Assembly (NCBI GenBank): GCA_018823415.1
Contig: JAHJIN010000196.1
Location: forward strand, 1-64,000
Direction: 5' to 3'
Source of the DNA: Chloroflexota bacterium
GTDB taxonomy: Bacteria > Chloroflexota > JAHJIN01
DNA: 64,000 bases
Shown here: positions 51,506 through 53,106 of the stretch, piece by piece
How positions within the stretch are numbered: the stretch's first letter is position 1
Layout: the number at the start of each line of letters is the position of its first letter
Notes under the pieces: model-generated
The model's input: only the letters and a program-made list of their open reading frames with translations
What the model was told of the DNA's origin: nothing
Database searches by the model: none
Made by a program: the position numbers and the translations under genes

Positions 51506-51666
51506 CTGGCAGTGTGGTGATTACCCACATCTCACCACGGAGGCACGGAATGCACGGAGAAGACCCAGAAAATACTCCTGACTCGGTGGTCTCCGTGTCT
51601 CTGTGGTGGAAAAATCGTCGACTGAAAGACCCCCACTGTACTTGTGGGTAATCACCACTGGCAGTG
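51506..51666. mobile_element. MITE with 15-bp terminal inverted repeats and 9-bp target duplication
   Basis: Ends TGGTGATTACCCACA (51515-51529) and TGTGGGTAATCACCA (51643-51657) are perfect inverted repeats. Both are flanked by the 9-bp direct repeat CTGGCAGTG (51506-51514, 51658-51666). The 143-bp interior holds a second imperfect palindrome (CACCACGGAGGCACGGA / TCCGTGTCTCTGTGGTG) and no ORF of note. It lies in the dksA-tyrS gap, ending 3 bp before the tyrS -35. Confidence 0.9.
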
Positions 51667-51668
51667 TC

Positions 51669-51697
51669 TTGACACATTGCGTCCGTTCTGGTATCAT
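51669..51697 (+). promoter_or_regulatory. tyrS promoter
   Basis: TTGACA (51669-51674), 17-nt spacer, TATCAT (51692-51697). It gives a leader of about 220 nt before tyrS. Confidence 0.85.
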
Positions 51698-51733
51698 AGC
51701 AGCAGATTCAGATACTTGCCAGGAGTTTTTATC

Positions 51734-51832
51734 ATGCGCGGTCACGCGCCCCTTACCCACAACCGGGCCACCCATCGAGTTCGCCAGTATATCTATTTGT
51801 GGCGTGCTCGGGGTTGGGGTGCGATTTCGTAG
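51734..51832 (+). CDS. Tyr-containing leader peptide of tyrS
   Basis: A 32-codon ORF with AGGAG 8 nt before ATG 51734 and TAG at 51830-51832. Near its end it reads RQYIYLWRARGW: two Tyr codons (51788-51790, 51794-51796) one codon apart, just before the 5' arm of the predicted antiterminator (51803). The placement fits ribosome-mediated attenuation of a tyrosyl-tRNA synthetase. Two Tyr codons is a modest signal, and two Trp codons are also present. Confidence 0.6.
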   Translation: MRGHAPLTHNRATHRVRQYIYLWRARGWGAIS

Positions 51833-51864
51833 GCGCCCGACGCGCGATTGCTCCCCCGGCCACG
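51803..51864 (+). promoter_or_regulatory. tyrS antiterminator pairing
   Basis: CGTGCTCGGGG (51803-51813) can pair with CCCCGGCCACG (51854-51864): ten of eleven positions, one of them G-U, one C-C mismatch. The 3' arm overlaps the first five bases of the terminator stem (51860-51864), so the two structures exclude each other. Confidence 0.6.
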
Positions 51865-51894
51865 GGCACGCCCATCCGCCCGTGGTCTTTTTTT
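51860..51894 (+). terminator. tyrS leader attenuator
   Basis: Perfect 8-bp stem CCACGGGC / GCCCGTGG, 10-nt loop, then TCTTTTTTT, ending 30 nt before the tyrS start. It lies upstream of the gene in its own leader, as attenuators do. Confidence 0.85.
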
Positions 51895-51924
51895 ACCTCG
51901 TTCCCTTTTTTTCAGGAGGTTCCC

Positions 51925-53106
51925 ATGAAACCAGACATCGATACCCTGTTACGCCGGGGCGTAGCCGAGGTCATTGTAGAAGACGAACTGCGGCAAAAGC
52001 TGACCGCCGGCCGCAAGTTGCGACTCAAAGAAGGCTTTGACCCTTCGAAACCTCACCTGCATGTGGGCCACGCAGCCACGCTGCGCAAGCTGCGCCAGTT
52101 CCAGGACCTGGGCCATCAGGTGGTGCTCATTGTGGGCGACTGGACCGCCCAGATCGGCGACCCATCGGGTCGCGACGAGAGCCGCACGGTCCTGGGCCGA
52201 GAAGAGGTGTTGGAAAACGCCGAAACCTATATGCAACAGTTTTTCCACATCGTGGACCGGGACCGGGCCGAAGTGCGTTGGCAGAGCGAGTGGTTTGACG
52301 GGTTCAACCTGGCCGACGTGTTCAAGCTCACCAGCCACTTTACCTACGCCCAGATGATGGCCCACGAGACGTTCCGCACGCGCGTGGAACAGAACCGGCC
52401 CCTCACTCTCATGGAGTTGATGTACCCACTGCTCCAGGCCTATGATTCCGTGGCCGTGGAAGCTGACGTCGAGTTTGGCGGCATGGACCAAAAGTTCAAC
52501 ATCCTGGCCGGCCGCGAGATGCAGCCTATTTTCGGCCAGCCGCCACAGAACGTGTTTCTGGTGCCCTTGCTTCCCGGCACCGACGGCCGCAAGATGAGCA
52601 AGAGCTTTGGCAATACCATCGACCTGGAAGATCCGGCCCACGAGATGTATGGCAAGACCATGTCTTTGGCCGACGCGGTGTTGATGGACTATTTGGCCTG
52701 TCTCACCGACATCCCGGACCTCGAGCTGGCCGAGATGGAGCAAGCCATGCGCGATGGCACCATGAACCCACGTGATGCCAAGATGCGACTGGGCCGCGAG
52801 TTGGTGACCCAGTTTCACGGCCCAGCGGCAGCGCAAGAGGCCGAGGCCGAATTCGTGCGCGTGTTCCAGCAGCGCGACCTACCCTCCGACATGCCCGAGT
52901 TTGCCCTGGACGTGCCCATGAACGTGGTCGAATTGATGGTCGAGGCCGGCCTGGTGCCCAGCAAGAGTGAGGCCCGCCGGCTCGTCGTTCAGGGTGGCGT
53001 ACGATTGGACGACGAGCGCATCGAGAGCGCCGATTTCGACGTGCCGGCGCGCGATGGTGTGCTCCGGGTGGGCAAACGCCGGTTCCTGCGGTTGATAGCC
53101 CAATAG
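51925..53106 (+). CDS. tyrS: Tyrosyl-tRNA synthetase
   Basis: 393 residues; CAGGAGGT before ATG 51925. Class I: HLHVGHAATLRKL (HIGH), GDWTAQIGDPSGRDESR, GGMDQKFNILAGRE, GRKMSKSFGN (KMSKS) and a C-terminal S4 domain (SEARRLVVQGGVRLDDERI). It charges tRNA-Tyr. This is the TyrZ-like long-KMSKS type rather than E. coli type by feel. It is preceded by a promoter, leader peptide and attenuator. Confidence 0.96.
   Translation: MKPDIDTLLRRGVAEVIVEDELRQKLTAGRKLRLKEGFDPSKPHLHVGHAATLRKLRQFQDLGHQVVLIVGDWTAQIGDPSGRDESRTVLGREEVLENAETYMQQFFHIVDRDRAEVRWQSEWFDGFNLADVFKLTSHFTYAQMMAHETFRTRVEQNRPLTLMELMYPLLQAYDSVAVEADVEFGGMDQKFNILAGREMQPIFGQPPQNVFLVPLLPGTDGRKMSKSFGNTIDLEDPAHEMYGKTMSLADAVLMDYLACLTDIPDLELAEMEQAMRDGTMNPRDAKMRLGRELVTQFHGPAAAQEAEAEFVRVFQQRDLPSDMPEFALDVPMNVVELMVEAGLVPSKSEARRLVVQGGVRLDDERIESADFDVPARDGVLRVGKRRFLRLIAQ

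Follow-up and report, generated by a model that had tools for sequence, protein, structure and literature searches.

The leader of tyrS in the window, the whole 64,000-nucleotide stretch of Chloroflexota DNA analysed here, is very probably a ribosome-mediated transcription attenuator of the trp/pheST type with specificity for tyrosine, an assignment based on its sequence parts, its mutually exclusive folds and the conservation of Tyr codons and pairing. A sequence-only reading had noted this leader and interpreted it as attenuation by a leader peptide; its observation is confirmed, its interpretation is supported and the finding is larger than its author thought. We consider it likely that this is the first Tyr-specific leader-peptide attenuator and that it constitutes the standard control of tyrS across much of the Chloroflexota, which employ T-boxes for other synthetases, and that in one large family the leader peptide is often made from a transcript which is probably leaderless.

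The host genome is a 6.9-Mb Chloroflexota assembly (G000), and the relatives compared with it share the phylum only. The regulated gene is a genuine tyrS, as its product matches the NCBIfam model TIGR00234 with E=2.4e-102 and 343 bits at a cut-off of 113.8. Its leader contains the parts that had been proposed (Table 1). The promoter agrees with the consensus in 11/12 positions (-35 TTGACA at 51669, a 17 nt spacer and -10 TATCAT at 51692-51697) and lies immediately 5' of the leader, while the ORF adjoining it has the opposite orientation. It is followed by a translatable short ORF with a good Shine-Dalgarno sequence (AGGAG, then the ATG at 51734), which carries Tyr-Ile-Tyr codons with two TAT triplets (51788-51790 and 51794-51796), and the terminator is situated between this ORF and tyrS. 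A perfect 16-nt inverted repeat (GTGGTGATTACCCACA / TGTGGGTAATCACCAC) at 51514-51658, enclosing 113 nt, stops 10 nt 5' of the promoter and has the appearance of a small repeat insertion.

Table 1. Coordinates of tyrS and its leader elements in the window
Feature	Position	Strand	Basis
Sigma-70-type promoter TTGACA-17-TATCAT	51669..51697	+	11/12 consensus matches
Shine-Dalgarno AGGAG of leader ORF, 7 nt 5' of ATG	51722..51726	+	sequence
Leader peptide ORF, MRGHAPLTHNRATHRVRQYIYLWRARGWGAIS and stop, 32 codons, ATG at 51734	51734..51832	+	sequence; relatives
Region 1, 5' arm of the 1:2 protector hairpin	51770..51786	+	fold -20.3 kcal/mol
Regulatory codons TAT ATC TAT (Tyr-Ile-Tyr)	51788..51796	+	Tyr codons conserved in relatives
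Region 2, partner of region 1 (through 51800-51814) or of region 3	51798..51826	+	alternative folds
Region 3, antiterminator 3' strand	51846..51874	+	overlap with the 5' terminator arm, which starts at 51858
Intrinsic terminator, arms 51858-51867 and 51878-51887, T7 tail 51888-51894	51858..51894	+	fold -20.2
tyrS, tyrosyl-tRNA synthetase (regulated gene)	51925..53106	+	NCBIfam TIGR00234 equivalog

Three hairpins can be formed by this leader, each of which was evaluated by its minimum free energy (MFE) against 500 dinucleotide shuffles. Hairpin 1:2 (51770-51786 with 51800-51814; MFE -20.3 kcal/mol, 1/500 shuffles equally low) encloses the Tyr-Ile-Tyr codons (51788-51796) in a loop of 13 nt. The 2:3 antiterminator pairs 51798-51826 with 51846-51874 (MFE -47.7 kcal/mol, 1/500 equally low), and for the 3:4 terminator (MFE -20.2) none of the 500 shuffles folded equally low. 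As 2:3 and 3:4 overlap, they are mutually exclusive. The sequence-only reading had recognized these latter two structures and overlooked hairpin 1:2 with the Tyr codons in it. The antiterminator it proposed, 51803-51813 with 51854-51864, overlaps the folded helix, which is longer and partly in another register; its terminator, with a 5' arm overlapping the antiterminator, is present (arms 51858-51867 / 51878-51887, T7 51888-51894). The core of the window's 2:3 helix, 51801-51810 with 51863-51872, corresponds to the helix of two relatives (G014 and G002), GGCGTGC x GCACGCC is common to the window and loci L009 and L010, and L009 has a 1:2 hairpin of like kind around its Tyr codons. A simple duplex test gave no significant result for the window leader (z 0.4) because it picked another pairing; hence, we replaced it by intramolecular folding, which is significant. 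A simple terminator scan likewise misses the window terminator, since the 10-nt loop exceeds the scan's 8-nt limit.

We infer ribosome stalling, termination, readthrough and a response to tyrosine from this arrangement as follows. With enough Tyr-tRNA, the ribosome would pass the Tyr codons and hairpin 1:2 would form behind it, so that region 3 stays free for pairing with region 4 and transcription ends ahead of tyrS. Under a shortage of charged Tyr-tRNA, the ribosome would wait at the first Tyr codon (51788), cover region 1 and open 1:2. The core of region 2, which starts about 10 nt past this codon, could then pair with region 3, and therefore the terminator could not form and tyrS would be transcribed. 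In the window as in G014 and G002, region 2 is located within the leader ORF. Assuming a ribosome footprint of about 10 nt beyond the A-site codon, a ribosome at the first Tyr codon leaves region 2 free, whereas one placed at the second covers part of region 2 and the fold is then the terminator. The first Tyr codon should hence be decisive in the window leader. That there are only two Tyr codons had been named as the weak point of the reading, and we count it against the attenuator as well, the position of the second codon being unfavourable.

An alignment of tyrS upstream regions had been proposed as the way to check the reading, and this comparison bore it out: Tyr-rich leader ORFs followed by a terminator/antiterminator pair are found repeatedly upstream of tyrS, in ten family groups of the Chloroflexota. 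G014 and G002, whose TyrRS is 63% identical, carry the leader MDFLSTRGFKY[IV]YRRRAQGPGV[GE]A, then a stop, in the same layout as the window, with the Tyr codons in the 1:2 loop and an extended antiterminator around GGCGTGCCC x GGGCACGCC. They share the stretch Y[IV]YxxRAxGxG with the window leader before tyrS; beyond these three genomes, this pattern matches only G307 (twice) and G144 among 400 Chloroflexota, so the exact leader variant of the window is rare. The leaders of other families differ in sequence and follow the same plan. Family f71 has ..GYVYPAP.., and the peptides of the remaining families end, up to the stop codon, in ..TYAYAYLQQA, ..GTYTYYSACRR and ..NTYGYYPAFRR (f57), ..RTYYYRV and ..SYYCTYASYHTG (f12), ..YMSYYYPR and ..CDYYPRASQS (f53), ..SQSYYPRT (f22), ..CTYIYSSGL (f66), ..VYYYFPC (f39) and ..KYYYYTAP and ..FSYYYSRA (f6). 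TTGAC-like -35 boxes together with -10 boxes are located just 5' of the leader ORF in the listed leaders of families f3, f57, f12, f53 and f71.

To quantify this enrichment we scanned 154 Chloroflexota tyrS loci, 49 of which carry a terminator-like hairpin no further than 150 nt from tyrS, for Tyr clusters (Y.?Y in a short upstream ORF), with the expectation taken from shuffled sequence. Enrichment of the cognate codon is apparent in the two Tyr codons of the window leader and in the clusters found in 24/49 terminator-bearing leaders against 2.2 expected, although, the tyrS loci being related, these counts are not independent events. Tyr is by far the top of the 20 residues, the second-ranked being Phe with 9 against 2.7 expected at the same 49 loci. 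None of 14 terminator-bearing tyrS leaders of other phyla and none of 14 leaders before Chloroflexota pheS contains a Tyr cluster, and 19 trpS loci of the same genomes yielded a single terminator and no leader. Since DNA of high GC content often contains short ORFs and GC-rich hairpins, one could regard the arrangement as an unremarkable short ORF with an unrelated terminator behind it, upstream of tyrS and without regulation. Such a chance arrangement is highly improbable in view of the joint recurrence of promoter, ORF, Tyr codons and alternative stems in ten family groups, and of the window promoter standing directly upstream beside an oppositely directed ORF.

The most regular version of the leader is found in family f6, where we searched for two Tyr codons followed by a CGCGCC..GGCGCGTTTT terminator and used the reversed pattern as control. 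The pattern is present in 83/150 genomes, as compared to a handful for the control, and 29 of the 30 loci opened lie before tyrS. An in-frame stop follows the Tyr pair within 15 nt in all 73 distinct sequences (at exactly 9 nt in 57), while in the other frames a stop within 22 nt occurs in 6/146 cases. The antiterminator beats its shuffles (p<=0.05) in 70/73 sequences, and 1-6 nt separate the stop codon from region 2. In this version, a ribosome at the stop codon would mask region 2 and one held at the Tyr run would leave it free; given this spacing, it seems to have no need of hairpin 1:2. In many f6 leaders the leader ATG lies 6-7 nt after a TATAAT box (L235, L236, L238, L240, L241, L296-L312). 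Because of this short distance, the transcript from which the peptide is translated is probably leaderless in these cases.

Compensatory changes in the stems, which had been named as further support, are seen where they can be counted, i.e. in the antiterminators of the f6 and f39 leaders rather than in the window's own small group. Among ten aligned antiterminators, 7/9 pairs show a change of both partners in at least one sequence, and double changes occupy 17 cells against 4.8 in shuffles. The covariation score is 0.68 compared to 0.27 for shuffles and at most 0.32 for slid registers, where the arms were aligned by hand in the proposed register, which favours that helix and is offset in part by the slid control.

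Hairpins without Tyr codons, which the sequence-only reading had named as a refuting case, do exist in G149 (L008) and some Chloroflexia, but they are a minority. In the segment 79-133 nt upstream of tyrS, G149 retains hairpins like those of its relatives, and its ORF MHALFANTRRSAAPDPG reaches its stop without a Tyr codon. Its leader reads NTRRSAAPDPG where relatives have NTYGYYPAFRR, i.e. the Tyr codons are replaced, and G149 has thus apparently lost the tyrosine signal. At the Chloroflexia loci L014, L015, L016 and L017 a hairpin is present and the Tyr cluster is absent, and no leader is evident before tyrS at L011-L013. About half of the terminator-bearing loci are without a Tyr cluster, and several of these hairpins lie in coding or unrelated sequence. 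The exceptional loci are losses or other regulation; the Tyr leader is hence common and not universal.

The hairpins retained by G149 would also fit a general translation sensor, in which the terminator would give way to any slowdown of translation or to a drug, with Tyr codons that are incidental or reflect nascent-peptide arrest. Slowdown-sensing leader peptides of the ermC type are known (named in PMC2965389). We nevertheless regard a sensor of this kind as improbable: Tyr is the sole strongly enriched residue (24 versus 2.2) and stands before the cognate synthetase gene, and the f6 Tyr runs keep a near-fixed distance from stop and antiterminator. The remainder of the leader peptide varies freely across families, which disfavours a peptide-arrest motif. 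Arrest via the RARGWG / RAQGPG stretch was considered separately and rejected, since the codons of this stretch also encode the antiterminator arm in the window and in G014/G002 and the peptides of other families share only the Tyr codons.

For a tyrosine-specific attenuator, the alternative sensor to consider is a T-box riboswitch at tyrS that the sequence-only reading might have overlooked. T-box-like elements do precede six other synthetase-type genes of the same genome (L001-L006, all below the curated Rfam cut-off), namely serS, valS, thrS, an alaX-like gene, trpS and leuS, as named from reading the downstream ORF sequences and not from a family search. At tyrS itself, as had been stated, none is visible: 51600-51960 gave no Rfam match up to E=10, and no T-box core motif was found in the 154 Chloroflexota tyrS leaders. 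Core and specifier thus being absent from these searches, we reject the T-box for this leader and give it practically no credence. The T-box had been brought in as the known control of tyrS in Firmicutes, a frame that does not apply to this host, which belongs to the Chloroflexota.

The same genome has a second candidate for a cognate leader peptide at pheS (L257, contig C311). A GTG/ATG ORF ending in ..SNSMAFFFAEP and a stop lies about 170-280 nt upstream and is followed by a terminator, AGCCCTCTTC..GAAGGGGGCTTTTT. AGAGGGC after the Phe codons could form an antiterminator with the complementary GCCCTCT in the terminator arm; the free fold of the segment does not choose this pairing, which makes it the weaker case. 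At 13 of the 20 Chloroflexota pheS loci read, a T-box core is present instead.

Among known systems, the pheST attenuator of E. coli uses the pheM leader peptide, and the E. coli trp operon has an attenuator with 1:2 / 2:3 / 3:4 hairpins. The tyrS leader resembles pheST in its cognate-codon-rich peptide, its terminator/antiterminator switch and its synthetase target, whereas it involves Tyr and not Phe, tyrS and not pheST, and Chloroflexota and not Gammaproteobacteria. It shares the alternative hairpins and the regulatory codons at 1:2 with trp, from which it differs by regulating a synthetase gene and by having the 5' arm of the antiterminator within the leader ORF. Outside the Proteobacteria, leader-peptide attenuators of the classical type have been predicted for trpS and leuS of Streptomyces (PMC1262725), which likewise are synthetase genes but, according to the passages of that article available to us, rely on Trp and Leu codons in few genomes; these passages contain no Tyr case. 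In bacilli, hisS paralogues have replaced a T-box by a His-leader peptide (PMC2965389), i.e. a cognate leader peptide in an otherwise T-box-using lineage as in our case, although for His and in Firmicutes. According to the same article, leader-peptide attenuation was previously known from Proteobacteria and Actinobacteria, and its main text mentions neither tyrS nor Chloroflexota. The tyrS T-box of Bacillus subtilis (cited in PMC2494555) also responds to Tyr-tRNA charging by terminator/antiterminator control of tyrS, but binds the tRNA directly with no leader ORF, and its parts are absent from the window leader. Dehalococcoides has three T-boxes per genome, for ileS and trp genes and none for tyrS (PMC2494555).

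The sequence-only reading was aware of no described tyrosine case, and in the literature open to full-text search we likewise found neither a Tyr leader nor an example from the Chloroflexota. The mechanism is of a known kind, while its tyrosine specificity, its tyrS target and the phylum appear to be new. Cognate leader-peptide control of synthetases has been described for Phe, Trp, Leu and His in Proteobacteria, Actinobacteria and bacilli. With a Tyr leader that recurs in genomes retaining T-boxes for other synthetases, the exchange of one sensing system for the other can be tested for individual genes, and the regular f6 leaders, many of them apparently leaderless, would offer a compact model for the coupling of a ribosome that starts at the 5' end to RNA polymerase.
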